NCBI GenBank assembly: GCA_002712005.1
Contig: PASP01000004.1
Location: 249,485-313,484 of the forward strand
Source of the DNA: Halobacteriovoraceae bacterium
Lineage (GTDB): Bacteria; Bdellovibrionota; Bacteriovoracia; Bacteriovoracales; Bacteriovoracaceae
Reading direction: 5' to 3'
DNA length: 64,000 nucleotides
Shown: piece after piece, positions 25,412 through 33,545 of the stretch
Layout of the letters: each line of letters starts with the position of its first letter
Numbering within the stretch: the first letter of the stretch is position 1
The notes under the pieces: generated by a model
The model's input: only the letters and a program-made list of their open reading frames with translations
Databases searched by the model: none
Told to the model about the DNA's origin: nothing
Translations under genes and position numbers: made by a program

Positions 25412-26632
25412 CTAGTCCAAAAGGAACTTGATCAATAAGTTAACAGCTTCTTTAAACTCTGCTTTTTCAGAGACAAGACTTAGGCGTGCTGTATTTGCCG
25501 TACCAAATGCAACTCCTGGAACCATGGCCAAACCATGTTTCTCAAGTAGTTCTTCACAGATTTGAACAGAGTGATCACCCTCTTCTCCAAACTCTGCTTT
25601 AAAGCGCTCCATCACAGGGGCACCTGAAAAATCGATAAAATAATAAAAGGCTGAAGTAGGCTGATACCAAACATGAGATAACTTATTATTACTAAGAGCA
25701 TCTCCTAAAGTTTCAGCATTTTCTCTTAAGTGCTTTTTAATGGGCTCAAGAAACATTGGAATTTTAGAAAACTCAAACTGGCATAGGGCCCTTTGAACTA
25801 GAGAGTTTGCTCCTGAAGTTGTTTGACCTTGTAATTTGTTGAGTTCCGTCGTTAAAACTTTTGGTGCGATAATAAAGCCAATTCTTAAACCTGTTGAGGC
25901 CAAGGTCTTTGAAATACCTTCAATAACAATCGTTCGTTTTAAAAGCTCAGGCTCATGTTGATAGAAATAAGTTGGTTTAGGGTCATAGTAATAGAGTTCA
26001 TAATAAATCTCATCTGAAAGAATATTCACATGAGGATACTTCATCATGAGAGCTGCAAATCCCTTCATCCACTCATCATTATAATGAGTCCCCGTCGGAT
26101 TGTTTGGACTATTCACGATAACGAGCTTCGTTTTATCTGTGATCTTCTTTTCCAATTCTTCTAAAGAAGGGACAAAGACATTAAAGGGACTACTTTCGAC
26201 AAGAACTTCTTTTCCCCCACAGAATTTAATCATTTCAGGATAAGAAACCCAATAAGGGGAGAAAATAACAACCTCATCACCCTCATCGATTAAAGTTTGC
26301 ATCACATTAATAATGGCGTGTTTCCCCCCATTACAAACAAGAGCATCGAATTCACCTTGAGAGGAGAGATTAACTTTTCTGCTTTCTTGAAAGTTATCCA
26401 TCACTTTCTTTCTCAACTCCGGATAACCCGCTACAGGACTATACTGAAAGGACTTGAGAAAATCACTCTCACTTCTGATCAGTTCAACGAACTCACTCAT
26501 TGGACGAAAAGGAAGTTGTCCGGCCGTGAGGTTATAAACCTTCTTACCATCAGCAGCCATTTGAGTGGCCTTAGCATTAAGTTTTAGCGTTATCGATTCT
26601 GAAATTTGTTTTACTCTATGGCTAAATTCCAT
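25412..26632 (-). CDS. Class I/II pyridoxal-phosphate aminotransferase (aspartate-type)
   Basis: 406 residues. Fold-type I PLP enzyme with NSPNNPTGTHY, the ILSDEIYYELYY strand and the Schiff-base Lys in EGISKTLASTGLRIGF. Closest in pattern to aspartate aminotransferases of the I-gamma type. It transfers amino groups between an amino acid and 2-oxoglutarate. SD GGGGA precedes the ATG. It follows coaD by 16 nt. Confidence 0.88.
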   Translation of the reverse strand: MEFSHRVKQISESITLKLNAKATQMAADGKKVYNLTAGQLPFRPMSEFVELIRSESDFLKSFQYSPVAGYPELRKKVMDNFQESRKVNLSSQGEFDALVCNGGKHAIINVMQTLIDEGDEVVIFSPYWVSYPEMIKFCGGKEVLVESSPFNVFVPSLEELEKKITDKTKLVIVNSPNNPTGTHYNDEWMKGFAALMMKYPHVNILSDEIYYELYYYDPKPTYFYQHEPELLKRTIVIEGISKTLASTGLRIGFIIAPKVLTTELNKLQGQTTSGANSLVQRALCQFEFSKIPMFLEPIKKHLRENAETLGDALSNNKLSHVWYQPTSAFYYFIDFSGAPVMERFKAEFGEEGDHSVQICEELLEKHGLAMVPGVAFGTANTARLSLVSEKAEFKEAVNLLIKFLLD

Positions 26633-26648
26633 TCTTTCCCCTACCGGA

Positions 26649-27134
26649 TTATTTTTTAAGATATTTTAAAATTGATTCAGGAATAAAATCAGAAATATCT
26701 CTTCCATGCTTATAAAGCTCTTTCACTAATGATGAAGAGATAAAATAATGTTTCCCTCCCGTAGGAAGGAAGAAGGTATCAATTTCGTCATTAAGATGAT
26801 TATTCATTGAAGCCATTTGAAATTCCATTTCAAAGTCACCAGTCGGCCTTAAGCCTCTCACAATGGCAAAGATATCGTGTTTCTTAGCATATTCAACGAC
26901 GAGACCATCCCAAGCATCAACTTTTGCTCGCGGCTCATTTTCTAAGTGCTTCTTAATCATTTCCACTCTCTCATCTCGAGTGAAGAGAGATTTCTTTGAA
27001 GGTGATACCGCAACTAAAATGGTAACTTCATCAAAGACTTTTAAAGCTCGCTTGAGAATATCATCGTGACCATTTGTGAAAGGATCAAATGTTCCAGGAT
27101 AAATAGCAGCTTTCTTATTTTGAGCAGAACTCAT
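26649..27134 (-). CDS. coaD: Phosphopantetheine adenylyltransferase
   Basis: Penultimate step of coenzyme A synthesis: adenylates 4'-phosphopantetheine to dephospho-CoA. 161 residues, the usual length. The nucleotidyltransferase motif is AIYPGTFDPFTNGH, followed by the KKSLFT segment, VRGLRPTGDFE and FISSSLVKE. SD AAGGA 7 nt before ATG. Same strand as rsmD, the common rsmD-coaD pairing. Confidence 0.96.
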   Translation of the reverse strand: MSSAQNKKAAIYPGTFDPFTNGHDDILKRALKVFDEVTILVAVSPSKKSLFTRDERVEMIKKHLENEPRAKVDAWDGLVVEYAKKHDIFAIVRGLRPTGDFEMEFQMASMNNHLNDEIDTFFLPTGGKHYFISSSLVKELYKHGRDISDFIPESILKYLKK

Positions 27135-27198
27135 GGTTTATTCCTTTAGTCTTAAAGATTTCAATATTATGCCTTAGTTCGATTAGGTTTGGAAACTT

Positions 27199-27218
27199 TG
27201 ACGTTGTTCTTAACGTCA
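27199..27218. promoter_or_regulatory. Perfect 7-6-7 palindrome upstream of coaD
   Basis: TGACGTT (27199-27205), six bases, AACGTCA (27212-27218), in the 133-nt gap between rsmD and coaD, about 65 nt before the coaD start. It may be an operator or a short hairpin in the leader. No T-run follows on the minus strand, so it is not an obvious terminator. Confidence 0.4.
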
Positions 27219-27267
27219 CGAATCATTAGGAGATCAGGTAAGTCATTTCTGTGAAAAACTTCAGAGG

Positions 27268-27846
27268 CTATTCAAATAGGGCCAAATAGCTGCCACCTTG
27301 CTTAAAGACTTTATAGGCCTCAAAACCTTGCTGCGCCCAAAAATCAAAAGGCACACCTTTATCTTTATCAGACTCAATCCATACTTGGGCCTTTCGGTTG
27401 GGATTTCGCAGAAGCTCTAATGTGTTTACCTTATATAGATTATGTTTTTCATAAGGTGGATCTATAAAAAGAATGGCTTCTTCCCTCTCTATCACAGAAG
27501 TTTGAACAGAGAGCCACTTTTCCATCGCACCATTTTGAAAGGAAATAGGTCGTGAGGATATTTCTTGGCCAAATATATCTTTAAAGATCCCAACATTCTT
27601 TCCCAATAAAGAATAAACCTGACGATGCTTCTCTAAGAGGAAACAACTCTTGGCCCCTCTTGACCAGGCCTCTAAACCCATAGCACCGGAACCTGCGCAA
27701 AGATCGTAGAATTCATAATCAGAGAAATCTTGAATGGAATCAAAAAGTCTTCTTTTAAGAAGTACAGAAGTAGGTCTTATTAATTGACCCTTAGGAACGA
27801 AAAGGGACCGGCCCTTGGCCAGTCCCCCTAATATTTTGATCGACAT
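27268..27846 (-). CDS. rsmD: 16S rRNA (guanine966-N2)-methyltransferase RsmD
   Basis: SAM-dependent methyltransferase that modifies G966 of 16S rRNA. 192 residues. It opens with the family start ILGGLAKGRSLFVP and RPTSVLLKRRLFDSI, then SAM motif DLCAGSGAMGLEAWSRGA and catalytic motif FIDPPYEKH. It begins 16 nt after the acidic protein gene; its own ribosome site is weak, suggesting coupling. Confidence 0.94.
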   Translation of the reverse strand: MSIKILGGLAKGRSLFVPKGQLIRPTSVLLKRRLFDSIQDFSDYEFYDLCAGSGAMGLEAWSRGAKSCFLLEKHRQVYSLLGKNVGIFKDIFGQEISSRPISFQNGAMEKWLSVQTSVIEREEAILFIDPPYEKHNLYKVNTLELLRNPNRKAQVWIESDKDKGVPFDFWAQQGFEAYKVFKQGGSYLALFE

Positions 27847-27862
27847 AAATTATAAATAAACC

Positions 27863-28468
27863 TTAAGCGGCCTTCTTACCAGCACTATTTGTTTGAGCTC
27901 CCTCTAAAGGAACACTAAACTTCACGCCACCGGCCATTTCCACTTCACAACCATGCTCTGATAGGTACAACTCTACTCCAGAGACGGTTACCTTGAGTTT
28001 TCCTTTTTCAACACTAAGAGAAGCTTCTTTATCTCCTAGAGAAAAACTCATATTGAAATCCATTTGTCCTTGACCAGAAAAACTCATTTCTCCAGTAGGA
28101 GCCTCATGGTGAGTTTGTGTAGGCTGTGCTGCCTCGCGATGTTCATCCATCGAAACCACATTATTAGTTTCCTCATGAATGGGCTCATCAGTCACCTCTT
28201 CAGAAGCGGCACTCATATCTTGCTCATATTCTTCTGGAGCATCTTCAGAATCAGAAGCTTCCATTGTAGCTTCTTCACTTTCATGCTCGATACTTTCAGT
28301 ATCTTCTTCTAATTCGCTTTGGACATTGTCCATTTCCGTATCAGCCGATGGTGTCTCTGACGCTTCTTGTTCAATGAATTCTTTTTCCAAGCTTTCAATT
28401 TCATTCATAATATCTTGAAGCTCAGCATCGTTAAAATTTTGATCTAGTGTCTCATCGTGATCTGACAT
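27863..28468 (-). CDS. Acidic, largely disordered protein of unknown function
   Basis: 201 residues, no signal peptide. Residues about 1-125 are very rich in Glu, Asp, Ser and Thr and probably unfolded. Residues about 130-190 look like a small beta domain (MDFNMSFSLGDKEASLSVEK, then GVELYLSEHGCEVEMAGG). The end is basic (AGKKAA). SD GGAGG gives the start. First gene of the rsmD-coaD cluster, so it is probably expressed constitutively. Function not known. Confidence 0.7.
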   Translation of the reverse strand: MSDHDETLDQNFNDAELQDIMNEIESLEKEFIEQEASETPSADTEMDNVQSELEEDTESIEHESEEATMEASDSEDAPEEYEQDMSAASEEVTDEPIHEETNNVVSMDEHREAAQPTQTHHEAPTGEMSFSGQGQMDFNMSFSLGDKEASLSVEKGKLKVTVSGVELYLSEHGCEVEMAGGVKFSVPLEGAQTNSAGKKAA

Positions 28469-28796
28469 ATTTCCTCCGGCCTTTAACTAACAAGTCCTTG
28501 TAATCACAGTCTAGTCCCCCTATCGGACTTTTACTCACGACTCTTTAGTCTTCTTTTCTTCCAATTTGATCCTGTGAATAATCTCAAGATCTTTAGGGCC
28601 CTTCCCTTGTTTTCACACTAAATCTATTTATGTCATTTTTTTGTCCGATGAAATCCCTCTTACATTTGGGATGTCATTGTTTTTCCTTGATTCTTCCATG
28701 ACAAATCACAAGAAGTTGAGGTACATTTTCGGACCACAAAAGAGACAACATAAATATGATTCATTTTGAAATATTAAAGATATTGGGAGCTTAGGG
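28469..28796. other. Intergenic divergent region
   Basis: No gene seen in these 328 bases. It separates two divergent genes and must hold both promoters, but I could not pick convincing -35/-10 pairs. GGAG at 7 nt before the TTG at 28797 is the ribosome site of the plus-strand gene. Short weak repeats (TGTCATT) are present without clear structure. Confidence 0.5.
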
Positions 28797-31700
28797 TTGA
28801 GTAAAAGGTTATTTACCGCCAATTCCTGGCTTCAAGCAAATTTAAAAGGCTCAAGTGCTTTAGATAGAGCTTCTCTATCAAACAAAGATTCTTACAATGT
28901 CCTATTGGAACATCAGGATTCTTCGTCTTCTTCTGCACAAGCTTTTAATTCTTTGCCGTCTTCCTTAAGCAAGAGGAATGCGGGGAACCGTGATGAATTA
29001 CCTCCTCTCCCCCATGAAGGACATGGACTTCATGGGTCTCATGAAATGAATGAAAGTTTTCTCCCTAAGAAATATTTTATTCCTGGCTGGTCTGGAGGCT
29101 CTCTCTTTTCACGACCTGCAGTTGCTATAAAGAAACTTCAAGAAGAACTTTGGAAAGATGCTCTCTACACCTTTAAGTCTTCTTCTAATTTTCCTAAAAC
29201 CATGTCGGCTGCGATCCATAAAGAATTTAAAGGCTCCGCATGCGAAACCCTTATTCCTTCTGAGTTCCAAGGCGAAATGCTCCAAAGCATTCGTGAAAAA
29301 ATTAAAGACCTCCATGACTATCAACTCTTTTGGAGTGAAGTAAAGAAACCTCAGTCAGAGTATGGCCTTATTTTAAAAGCCTTTTTAGAGCTATACTGCT
29401 TTAAAGTTGCCACGATTTATTTATTAAAATTAAAATTTCTCGTCTCTTACTCGGAAGCGACAAGCTTCTCTTATACAATTAATCATATTGTAAATCCCAG
29501 CACCTTTATCAATCACCTCTTTACCAAGGGAAGCTCTCAAGAGATCAATTGTGAGTCTCTTAAAATGAATCAATATTCTTGGTACAGACCTTCAGGTAAA
29601 ATTGCTCAAAGACTAGAAGAGCTTACTAAGAGTTTTAGTGATGTTTCTACGACTCAGCTTATGAAGCTTTGCTCTTATCGCGATATTGATTCATCTAGTT
29701 CTTCCTTAAAGTTTAATAATAAGAATTATAGCCATGCGCTTTCCCACAAAAGCTTTGGGAAGTTTATAAATGAATTACTCGTCTTCTTTCCTTTGTGGAA
29801 TCAATACGAAACATTTCACTATCCAAGAAAACAATCACTAGCTCACCCCGATGTACTCAATACTAAATTTGTCGGTGACCATATTGAATCTTTAGGCCAA
29901 GGCCATTGGCTGGCCCAAGAGAGCAACCTTGCTATGGATTGGTCAGAAATTATCTGTCCAGATTTTTCGACTGAAGATCAGTCAGAAAAGTGCTTCATTA
30001 AAACTTCTCAGGAACTTCAGTTTCTTAATTTTCTTGTAACCTATTCAAAAGATCGTCGTATCTCAACGAGAGATTTTGTCCTTCAAGTTACTCGAGAAAA
30101 ATTTAATCGTTCTAAAATCAATATGTCCCCGCAGATCAGTCTTTTCACCACAAGTGAACAGCAGTCTGATCTCTTATATGACCGCATCGTTCTTAATCTA
30201 GGACATCTTCCTAAAAAGAATCCTCATCATTTTCTTTTAAGTAAGATTCAAGAACAGAAAGATTCACTTGCAACCGAAGCACAGCTTTTAGTTCTTACTA
30301 ATCAGAAAATATTTGTTCCTAGTCAAAGTAAGAAAGTAAAAGCTCTATTAAAAGACTTTAAGATTGAAGCCATCTTTAATTTTGAAAAATTAAAGGGTCG
30401 TGGAGAAGTCTCTAATTATGCCTATATTCTATCTAAGAGAAATCCGTTTGCTCGCAATAAAGACTTTCTCAATATGGACCCAGCTTCTCTCGTCGCCTCT
30501 CAAAAGCTCGAGCAAGAATCATGCTTCTCTTTTCGTTGGCATGGAGAATTAACTCTCTTTTCTAAATTTGATATTTTAGTCGATGAGCTCTTTAACTTCT
30601 TCAGTGAAAAAAGCTCACAGAGTGCATCGATTTACCAAAGAGGCCTAGGGCACGAACTTTCATTTGAATTCCACCAAGATGCCATCATAGATGGAAAACT
30701 TTTAAGTAGTTTGAATGAAGATAATGAGAATATTACTCACCCTCAGTTTTTCAAAAATCTAACTTTAAGCTGCTCACCCTTTGATACTTTCTTTTCTATT
30801 ATTGAACTCCAAGATAGACGTTCAAAAAAGTCTACCAAAGACTTTTTAGGCATTTCTCAAAGCTCAGAGCAATCAGCTTATAGTAGTGTACTCATTATCG
30901 ACCTTAGAAATGCTGTACGCCCGCAAATTGAAATCATCTCACCCGAGAGCTATTTGGCCAAAAGAGATGAGTATGGAAATGCTTACTTTCAATACTACGG
31001 ACTAACTCCTAAAGTAAAAAATCTTAATCTCAATCTTCTACGTGAATTCCTTGAAACTGATTTAGGCAGACAAGTCACTCAGATTTGCTTAAGTGGTGGC
31101 CCAAGTAAAATGAAGGGAAAACTTAAGTCTCTCCTTCTCCCTAATTTCTTTAAAGACGGTCGAGACCTCTCAACCCTTAATCCAGAGAAATATTGGTTCT
31201 TCAATATTAACGAAGAGGAACTTCTCAATACACATCCTGAGGAGCTTCACCAAAAAGTACTTAAAGAATATTCAAAAATTGATTATCTTAAAGATCAACA
31301 AATCTGGCTCTACTTAAGTCTTATTGGTCATTTAAAATTAACTCTTCGCTCAACCCTTGAGAAGATTAACGATGATCCCCATAAAGAATTTAATTTTACG
31401 AATCCTCTTTTAATTGAAGCTTTAACAAGTCTTACAACTTATACCATTTATCCAAATGAAGAAGTTTATACGGAATTAAAGATTGAACATAAAGATGAAC
31501 TTGAGTGCCCTCTGACCCAATTAAAACTCATTGAAAATGGAGAGGATTGTTCACTCCATCTATATGGACCTGAAAAAGTTCTTATTGAATTTCATGCGGA
31601 AAAAGAGACTCTTCAATTTATTCAGTTTATCCTGTCTCAAGCTTCAGGCTATCCTCTCCTCCAGATCCTTCAAAATCTTGAGATTCCTAAGCATGATGAG

Positions 31701-31814
31701 CTAAAATCTGTTCTCACTGAGTTTAACCAAGTCAAAACGACACTTCATGACACCTATAATGAAGTTCACTCTAAAATCACCAGGGCCTTCACTAAACAAA
31801 TTGCTCAAGTATAA
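28797..31814 (+). CDS. Large protein resembling a degenerate N6-adenine DNA methyltransferase with TRD-like C-terminus
   Basis: 1005 residues from a TTG start (GGAG 7 nt upstream). In the middle, DRIVLNLGHLPKK (about 463-475) sits where N6-adenine methyltransferases have D-x-I-x-x-NPPY. It is followed in the right order by LVLTNQKIFVPS, KVKALLKDFKIEAIFNFEKL and SNYAYILSKR, the pattern after motif IV in HsdM-type enzymes. Around 750-785, FLETDLGRQ then GGPSKMKGKLKSLLLP resembles the end of a target-recognition domain. NPPY and a clear SAM-binding FxGxG are missing, so it should not methylate. The N-terminal 250 residues are not recognised. Homology is my reading of pattern, not a search result. 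It stands beside the ChaN-like gene (66 nt gap). Confidence 0.55.
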   Translation: MSKRLFTANSWLQANLKGSSALDRASLSNKDSYNVLLEHQDSSSSSAQAFNSLPSSLSKRNAGNRDELPPLPHEGHGLHGSHEMNESFLPKKYFIPGWSGGSLFSRPAVAIKKLQEELWKDALYTFKSSSNFPKTMSAAIHKEFKGSACETLIPSEFQGEMLQSIREKIKDLHDYQLFWSEVKKPQSEYGLILKAFLELYCFKVATIYLLKLKFLVSYSEATSFSYTINHIVNPSTFINHLFTKGSSQEINCESLKMNQYSWYRPSGKIAQRLEELTKSFSDVSTTQLMKLCSYRDIDSSSSSLKFNNKNYSHALSHKSFGKFINELLVFFPLWNQYETFHYPRKQSLAHPDVLNTKFVGDHIESLGQGHWLAQESNLAMDWSEIICPDFSTEDQSEKCFIKTSQELQFLNFLVTYSKDRRISTRDFVLQVTREKFNRSKINMSPQISLFTTSEQQSDLLYDRIVLNLGHLPKKNPHHFLLSKIQEQKDSLATEAQLLVLTNQKIFVPSQSKKVKALLKDFKIEAIFNFEKLKGRGEVSNYAYILSKRNPFARNKDFLNMDPASLVASQKLEQESCFSFRWHGELTLFSKFDILVDELFNFFSEKSSQSASIYQRGLGHELSFEFHQDAIIDGKLLSSLNEDNENITHPQFFKNLTLSCSPFDTFFSIIELQDRRSKKSTKDFLGISQSSEQSAYSSVLIIDLRNAVRPQIEIISPESYLAKRDEYGNAYFQYYGLTPKVKNLNLNLLREFLETDLGRQVTQICLSGGPSKMKGKLKSLLLPNFFKDGRDLSTLNPEKYWFFNINEEELLNTHPEELHQKVLKEYSKIDYLKDQQIWLYLSLIGHLKLTLRSTLEKINDDPHKEFNFTNPLLIEALTSLTTYTIYPNEEVYTELKIEHKDELECPLTQLKLIENGEDCSLHLYGPEKVLIEFHAEKETLQFIQFILSQASGYPLLQILQNLEIPKHDELKSVLTEFNQVKTTLHDTYNEVHSKITRAFTKQIAQV

Positions 31815-31880: not shown

Positions 31881-33545
31881 ATGAATAAAATTGATAAAGT
31901 CTGGGAACTTCATAAATCTATTTATCGCCACCTTAAGAAGAAGGCCAAAAGTCTTGAGGGTGAAGTTTCTAAAGAGCTGGTTCAATATGAGAAGAATCAG
32001 AGAAAGTATGCTTCTCGTGACTTCGAACAATCCTCTATGGATGAACTCTTTAATCGTATTAATCAAAGTCATGTCGTTTATCTAGGTGATTTTCACAGCT
32101 TCGATCAGAACTCTAGAAATTTGGAACGCCTTATTCGTAATCTGATTATTCAAAAAGAAGCATTCTCCTTAGGAGTAGAGTTTGTTGATATCAAACATCA
32201 ACAGGCCATTGATGACTATTTAAAACGTCACATAACAGAATTAGAATTTTTAGAACAAATTGAATACCACGAAACTTGGCGCTTCCCTTGGGTTTATTAT
32301 CGTCCCTTCTTTCAAATGGCGAGAGAGAATAATGTTTCGGTTCTCGCCCTCAATACAGAGGGAGGACTCAAAGAGAGGGATGAAAAAGCAGCTCATCAAA
32401 TACAGCAATTCTTTAGTCAGAATCCAAAGTCTCGTCTTCTCGTTCTATTTGGAGAGCTCCATATCGTAAAGAATAAGCTGCCTCAGATGGTCAAAAAGAG
32501 GCTCTCCCCTCTCTTGCCGAATTATAAAGATCTCATTATTCATCAAAATCTAGATGAGGTTTATTGGAAGCTCCACGAAATTCATATTGAAAAGCATAAT
32601 CAAATTATCACTTTTGAGGACAATGAATTCGCGCTGCTTTCTGCACCTCCATGGATAAAATACGAAAGTATGATTTATTGGTATGAAAATCTTGCGGATT
32701 CCCCAGAGCTAGAAATAAACGATTATCTCTTTAATGAAGGGGTCTTATATTTAAACTCAAATGTTCCAGAGAACTTCTTATACTTATGTGAAAAAATCCG
32801 AGAAACTCTTGAAATAGAAGATAAGATCGAATGGGAGTCCCTTGAAGACTTCAATCTCTATGAACACCAAAACTTAGAAATTGTAACAGAGAAGATTCAA
32901 GCCCTATCTCAACAAAGATTAATCGACTTTTTCGAGCGTCTCGTTTCAGAGGGGCGAGTTTTTAGAATTCCCCAAACATCGAGCTACTACTGCTCTTCTT
33001 ATTCGATTAACCGAATGGGACAACTGGCTGGAACTCATCTCCAACATTTGGCCCATCAAAAACAAGGTTTAGATGACCAGAAGCAATGGCTCCAGTCGAA
33101 GAGTTACGAGAAATTTATAAGTATTATAAAAACCAATGCTATTGGATTTCTCTGCTCTAAAATTATTAATCCCTATAGAAAATGTGACCTCTACGGAGAT
33201 GTGCTTACCCAGTTACAAAGCATTCCCACGAGCGATACAAAAACAGCGCAAAAGGCTTCTATTCTTCATTTATTTAAAGACTGTATTGAACTTGAAGACC
33301 AAACACCCCTCGCTAATATTCTTAAGAATAAAAATCTATTCATTATTCATGAAGCAGCTAGAAAGATTGGTTTCTATTGGGGCGAGGTTGTCTACGAAGA
33401 GTTTTTAATGAAGGGGAATCGGCAAGTGAATCAAGTAATGAATTATCTCTTTAGCCTTTCTTTGGACGAGTCTGAGTTTAAAAAAGTCTTAAGGCAAATA
33501 CTCCCAAAGAGTATCTACCCTAAGCACAAGAAACGTTATTTCTAG
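31881..33545 (+). CDS. ChaN-like (haem-binding uptake/TIKI superfamily) protein
   Basis: 554 residues, no signal peptide. The N-terminal domain has the ChaN signature: VYLGDFHS (about 63-70), SLGVEFVDIKHQQAIDDYL, then ALNTEGGLKERDEKAA and LLVLFGELHIVKN (about 191). ChaN proteins bind haem as dimers; the superfamily also includes TraB/TIKI peptidase-like folds, with the same paired E/H motifs. A C-terminal part of about 250 residues is not recognised. Lacking an export signal, a cytoplasmic role is expected. Its stop overlaps the convergent sensor-like gene by 4 nt. Confidence 0.72.
   Translation: MNKIDKVWELHKSIYRHLKKKAKSLEGEVSKELVQYEKNQRKYASRDFEQSSMDELFNRINQSHVVYLGDFHSFDQNSRNLERLIRNLIIQKEAFSLGVEFVDIKHQQAIDDYLKRHITELEFLEQIEYHETWRFPWVYYRPFFQMARENNVSVLALNTEGGLKERDEKAAHQIQQFFSQNPKSRLLVLFGELHIVKNKLPQMVKKRLSPLLPNYKDLIIHQNLDEVYWKLHEIHIEKHNQIITFEDNEFALLSAPPWIKYESMIYWYENLADSPELEINDYLFNEGVLYLNSNVPENFLYLCEKIRETLEIEDKIEWESLEDFNLYEHQNLEIVTEKIQALSQQRLIDFFERLVSEGRVFRIPQTSSYYCSSYSINRMGQLAGTHLQHLAHQKQGLDDQKQWLQSKSYEKFISIIKTNAIGFLCSKIINPYRKCDLYGDVLTQLQSIPTSDTKTAQKASILHLFKDCIELEDQTPLANILKNKNLFIIHEAARKIGFYWGEVVYEEFLMKGNRQVNQVMNYLFSLSLDESEFKKVLRQILPKSIYPKHKKRYF

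Follow-up and report, generated by a model that had tools for sequence, protein, structure and literature searches.

The window, meaning the whole stretch of 64,000 nucleotides of Halobacteriovoraceae DNA that was analysed, carries an open reading frame that starts at TTG and encodes 1005 residues, confirming the protein reported in the preliminary description, and the segments quoted there (DRIVLNLGH, LVLTNQKIF, SNYAYILSKR and FLETDLGRQ...KGKLKSLLLP) are all present in the order given. Start codons of the related genes are mostly TTG or GTG as well. The features of the locus are listed below, with domain limits following the predicted structure.

25412-27846, minus strand: aminotransferase - CoaD - RsmD block, conserved and used as a locus marker
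27863-28468, minus strand: divergent acidic neighbour of 201 aa, net charge -45, conserved between RsmD and the pseudo-methyltransferase gene in several families
28691-28704, plus strand: conserved upstream box, probable promoter or operator, window copy TTCTTCCATGACAA
28797-31814, plus strand: coding sequence of the predicted pseudo-methyltransferase, TTG start, 1005 aa
28797-28832, plus strand: N-terminal peptide MSKRLFTANSWL, residues 1-12, pattern F..A..WL, at the tip of a long flexible linker, with low pLDDT around the peptide
28833-29081, plus strand: linker, residues 13-95, predicted disordered (pLDDT <50)
29082-29816, plus strand: helical N-terminal domain, residues 96-340, HsdM-like in the predicted structure
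29568-29594, plus strand: NQYSWYRPS signature, residues 258-266, common to 12 other families
29817-30716, plus strand: Rossmann methyltransferase domain, residues 341-640, from predicted fold and structure matches
29859-29879, plus strand: NTKFVGD where motif I (SAM) would lie, residues 355-361, canonical DPxxGxG lost, residue-level alignment tentative
30177-30230, plus strand: YDRIVLNLGHLPKKNPHH where motif IV would lie, residues 461-478, N kept and PPY lost
30717-31181, plus strand: target recognition (TRD-like) domain, residues 641-795, as conserved as the core
31182-31811, plus strand: C-terminal region, residues 796-1005, a pair of long helices plus another small beta domain in an HsdS-like layout

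In what follows, f1 denotes the GTDB family of the window and the other f-numbers denote other families of Bdellovibrionota. The acidic neighbour comprises a short conserved N-terminal helix motif (IMNEIE), an acidic linker and a small C-terminal beta domain (DGTEFRIP-like). Similar acidic proteins adjoin RsmD in f2, f8, f15, f19 and f20, and the corresponding neighbour in f10 shares the beta part only and is not acidic. The acidic protein is a possible partner of the 1005-residue protein. Directly downstream, at 31881-33545 on the plus strand, lies a gene of the ChaN/Tiki-type haem-binding family (PF04187, E 1.1e-24), extended by a long additional C-terminal part and syntenic in 43 of the 80 related loci listed. 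In other families the pseudo-methyltransferase gene is followed by a protein of 235-251 aa (L121:8322-9041, L157:6646-7398, L160:1492-2244, L164:6096-6803, L166:773-1492, L167:6513-7217), for which the one case searched, that of L121, had no Pfam match, and which may represent a partner lost in Bacteriovoracales. Of 77 loci, 45 have a box of the form TTT[TC]N4TGAC upstream of the pseudo-methyltransferase start, mostly at a distance of 70-115 nt; its common form is TTTTTTCATGACAAA, with an imperfect dyad around TCATGA and a -10-like element approximately 18 nt further on, and it probably serves as promoter or operator of the pseudo-methyltransferase gene itself. A wider regulon for this box was not supported, as its copies elsewhere in the genomes are scattered and several are start codons of unrelated genes (MTK...).

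Neither the window protein nor an alignment of 34 relatives used as the query had a convincing match in Pfam, NCBIfam, PADLOC or, by sequence, among the solved structures of the PDB, and the literature searched held no description of the family. Direct comparison of the f1 family profile with canonical enzymes was not significant (E = 0.16), so that intermediate families and structure were needed to prove a resemblance to methyltransferases. An AlphaFold2 model built from 77 sequences (pLDDT 81.8, pTM 0.62) placed a helical domain, a Rossmann domain, the TRD and the C-terminal region in that order after residues 1-95, which were disordered except for the short conserved peptide. Nine structures matched the full model in Foldseek at E <=0.001, all of them adenine DNA methyltransferases or HsdM, the best being M.BseCI (E 2.3e-6). 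M.BseCI was likewise at the top in VIA-align (Z 12.8 over 379 residues, rmsd 5.5), followed by HsdM, PacII, CamA, BpuSI, DrdV, BrxX and TaqI, with the uncharacterised class I SAM methyltransferase 2f8l also near the top. The C-terminal 366 residues (640-1005) were folded separately with a pLDDT of 90.4 and matched HsdS proteins best in VIA-align (1yf2 at Z 8.4, PacII S at 7.6, 1ydx at 7.3, BsaXI S at 6.6; first unrelated row at Z 5.8), a resemblance reached only by this second look, Foldseek alone giving nothing at E <0.001. The predicted structure has the gamma-class layout of N6-adenine DNA methyltransferases, a Rossmann fold plus a TRD, the outcome that the preliminary description had named as support for its reading.

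A search of other families of the phylum with the f1 profile yielded two weak matches, each inside a frame of 900-1000 aa adjoining RsmD. From these, homologues were traced to 12 other families in total (f4, f5, f8, f10, f12, f13, f15, f17, f19, f20, f24 and f29), all carrying at the same place a signature [YF]SW[YFL] preceded by N or a comparable residue (NxYSWY), which is also found in 73/77 of the f1 proteins. In hhalign, the f1 profile aligned with 23 proteins of other families at E 1.3e-16 over 775 columns, whereas two unrelated large proteins of the window gave E 0.82 and 0.83 against the same profile; as these controls are single sequences, the fairer comparison is with the single window protein, which scored E 1e-5. 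Within the other families, the f8/f12 group and the f4/f5/f10 group were joined at E 2.6e-35. The f4/f5 proteins are the only relatives that pass the Pfam cut-offs for Eco57I (down to 4.2e-16) and N6_Mtase (down to 2e-9); they also match MmeI_Mtase, and TaqI_C below its cut-off, whereas the window protein itself belongs to no Pfam family. A profile of f4/f5/f10 further matched ordinary, mostly NPPY-bearing enzymes of the phylum (E 1.4e-23), with NPPY opposite PPEQ. The phylum also has a scattering of ordinary Eco57I-type methyltransferases with GNPP[YW] (L218, L219, L220, L222, L223, L224, L225, L226, L228); these do not carry NxYSWY, which sets the degenerate family apart from them. A weak profile match in f2 was rejected as a homologue because it is such an ordinary enzyme, with GNPPY and no signature.

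The earlier observation that a SAM-binding motif is not evident extends to the family, with neither DPxxGxG nor [NDS]PP[YFWH] in any of the 77 aligned f1 proteins (0/77 for each), which have TKFxGD at the place of motif I and NLxxLPKxNPHH at that of motif IV. The replacement of NPPY by NLGH, proposed in the preliminary description, holds for the missing PPY, but the letters NLGH are not conserved among the homologues: in the relatives' region, YDRIVLNLxxLPKxNPHHFL, the N of NPPY has its counterpart in N467, which is conserved in at least 90%. Outside f1, the SAM-binding motif I is retained in f4, f5 and f10, being intact in f4/f5 (DPTMGSGNFL or DPACGTGNFL) above a broken motif IV (GCPPE, CCPPES or SAPPEQ), and taking the form NPIAGAGSLL in f10 with AHFPDHY at motif IV, while f8, f12, f15 and f19 have PTLRxG at motif I and EE close to where motif IV would be; in the most diverged groups the alignment of single residues is tentative. 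No sampled member of the other families has a canonical motif IV, [NDS]PP[YFW], at the proper place; an apparent SPPY in an f10 protein (L122) was rejected because it lies after motif V. Loss of the catalytic motif is common to all sampled members, with loss of the SAM motif added in most lineages.

Descent from a methyltransferase and loss of its motifs are thus well supported, and the resemblance to a dead adenine methyltransferase first suggested for this protein is borne out both by the predicted fold and by the f4/f5 homologues recognised as Eco57I/N6_Mtase; the protein is very probably a pseudo-methyltransferase. A methyltransferase that is still active through unusual motifs, on DNA, RNA or another substrate, would be consistent with the good SAM motif of the f4/f5/f10 relatives, with the conservation of N467 at the motif IV position in f1 and with the very low dN/dS of the Rossmann domain. 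It is nevertheless improbable, in view of the uniform absence of both motifs from f1 and the variation of motif IV residues by lineage in the other families (CPPE, APPE, xEE).

The pseudo-methyltransferase gene is single-copy in its genome; one sample of the same GTDB family had it in 35/36 other genomes, and another in 34/34. With the alignment as the query, 96 loci were recovered from 84,980 species genomes, those among the 80 listed being mostly titled Bacteriovoracaceae, Halobacteriovorax, Bacteriovorax or Bdellovibrionales (order Bacteriovoracales); the single window protein, unlike the alignment, had no match when used as the query against genome contigs, and there was no match to the gene in plasmid and phage collections. 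At most loci the gene adjoins the block of aminotransferase, CoaD, RsmD and acidic protein in the opposite direction of transcription, and in most of the 12 other families it lies beside RsmD-CoaD, or a few kb away in f4; f6, f11, f14, f18 and f21-f23 have different genes upstream of RsmD. Pairwise distances track those of RsmD, CoaD and the aminotransferase (Pearson 0.84-0.86, Spearman 0.47-0.58). Among close pairs in f1, dN/dS was 0.02-0.07 overall, with large dS (0.8-2 or saturated), and was no higher in the dead domain and very low in the Rossmann domain, in keeping with the earlier remark that the protein is kept intact. Given its single copy, fixed locus, strong purifying selection and distances that track its neighbours, the gene is a vertically inherited core gene.

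That the gene is a functionless, decaying remnant of a restriction-modification gene would fit the loss of both catalytic motifs, but it is hardly credible, being already contradicted by the selection data (dN/dS 0.02-0.07), by the fixed locus in 34/34 genomes and by the absence of internal stops from the matched frames of the listed family members. A role connected with RNA or the ribosome, suggested by the order-wide adjacency to the RsmD-CoaD operon, is very improbable, as the gene is transcribed divergently from that operon and its fold relatives are DNA enzymes.

An ordinary restriction-modification gene was also considered and rejected. No restriction-modification genes were found by Pfam among nine neighbouring proteins, as the preliminary description had noted, and the genome has no match to PF02384 (N6_Mtase). 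There is likewise no Pfam nuclease domain in the protein's own chain, which begins with the disordered linker and helical domain. The TRD is usually the most variable part of restriction enzymes. Here its mean identity is 39.4% against 41.5% for the core, with G757 and P782 invariant and Q759 and K773 near-invariant in the stretch FLETDLGRQ...KGKLKSLLLP, and the gene is found at one fixed locus in 34/34 genomes where a restriction-modification gene would have a mobile, patchy distribution and a variable TRD. This conservation, unlike that of restriction enzymes, makes a single fixed target more likely, if the target is DNA.

A decayed active site in a protein that keeps the same chromosomal place under strong selection suggests that the protein has probably been retained for another job, most likely gripping DNA. 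In the proposed history, an adenine DNA methyltransferase of the Eco57I/type IIG kind, fused to an HsdS-like specificity part, would have been passed on vertically, losing its catalytic loop and, in the order Bacteriovoracales, its SAM-binding motif too. The recognition domain and methyltransferase cleft would then bind a conserved DNA sequence and leave it unmodified, while either the helical domain or the N-terminal peptide on its flexible linker would recruit or position a partner. The F..A..WL pattern, recognised in 53/77 relatives with F6 and W11 conserved (start choice being uncertain in the remainder), is a possible docking peptide. From this we infer a protein without catalysis that binds DNA and recruits a partner, and the complete statement, a pseudo-methyltransferase of adenine-methyltransferase descent that is now a non-catalytic, DNA-binding recruiter, is given just short of an even chance of being correct.

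The principal alternative to DNA binding is a protein scaffold or enzyme partner, in which contact with DNA has been lost and the protein forms the structural half of a complex in the style of METTL14-METTL3; the acidic neighbour, or some other conserved protein, could be the second half. Charge is near neutral in both the TRD and the core, which leaves such a role open, although canonical enzymes of similar size are not clearly basic either and net charge was discarded as an uninformative test of DNA binding. The F..A..WL peptide on its disordered linker, the conserved and very acidic neighbour and the METTL14 precedent (PMC6112310) also favour a scaffold. However, the TRD and HsdS-like layout are retained and conserved, the genome has no enzyme of the PF02384 family, the one searched, to serve as active partner, and the acidic neighbour is present also in f2, where the pseudo-methyltransferase gene was not found, so that a scaffold is considered unlikely. 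Returning to the DNA-binding reading, its most specific form is a tentative and somewhat doubtful one: in Bacteriovoracales the protein would be a core component of the nucleoid or a core regulator, with older forms across much of Bdellovibrionota; it would have arisen from an adenine methyltransferase and specificity module and would recognise a single fixed DNA sequence that it does not methylate, possibly under the control of the very acidic neighbour as a DNA mimic.

Dead DNA methyltransferases are usually viewed as decaying restriction genes. The lineage traced here through 13 families of one phylum, mostly at one locus, runs from proteins that retain the SAM motif to proteins with neither motif, with selection demonstrated for f1, and offers a natural series in which to study a DNA-modifying enzyme turning into something else. 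It also brings to light a core gene, as yet uncharacterised, that bacterial predators (Bacteriovorax, Halobacteriovorax) carry and that is invisible to domain annotation.

Among known systems, METTL14 offers the best-known case of a methyltransferase retained without catalysis, its catalytic motif having been replaced while the fold was kept by selection (PMC6112310); however, it belongs to a different methyltransferase family and acts on RNA with an active partner, of a kind not known for the pseudo-methyltransferase. BrxX/PglX of BREX has a similar fold, and the f4/f5 relatives score weakly against BREX-2 PglX, far below the cut-off, but there are no BREX genes among the nine neighbours and the window protein has no PADLOC match. 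The HsdM and HsdS of type I systems correspond to the N-terminal and C-terminal halves, respectively, which here form one polypeptide with no HsdR and a TRD that is not variable. Eco57I/type IIG and M.BseCI-like gamma-class enzymes (PF07669, PF02384, PF12950) share the order of helical N-terminal domain, Rossmann domain, TRD and C-terminal helices and are linked by descent through the f4/f5 relatives, whereas the pseudo-methyltransferase has no SAM motif, NPPY, restriction partner or Pfam match and occupies a fixed chromosomal locus. CamA, an adenine methyltransferase conserved in the core genome of Clostridioides difficile, has the same overall fold and is likewise a vertically inherited orphan, but unlike the pseudo-methyltransferase it is active and has NPPY.
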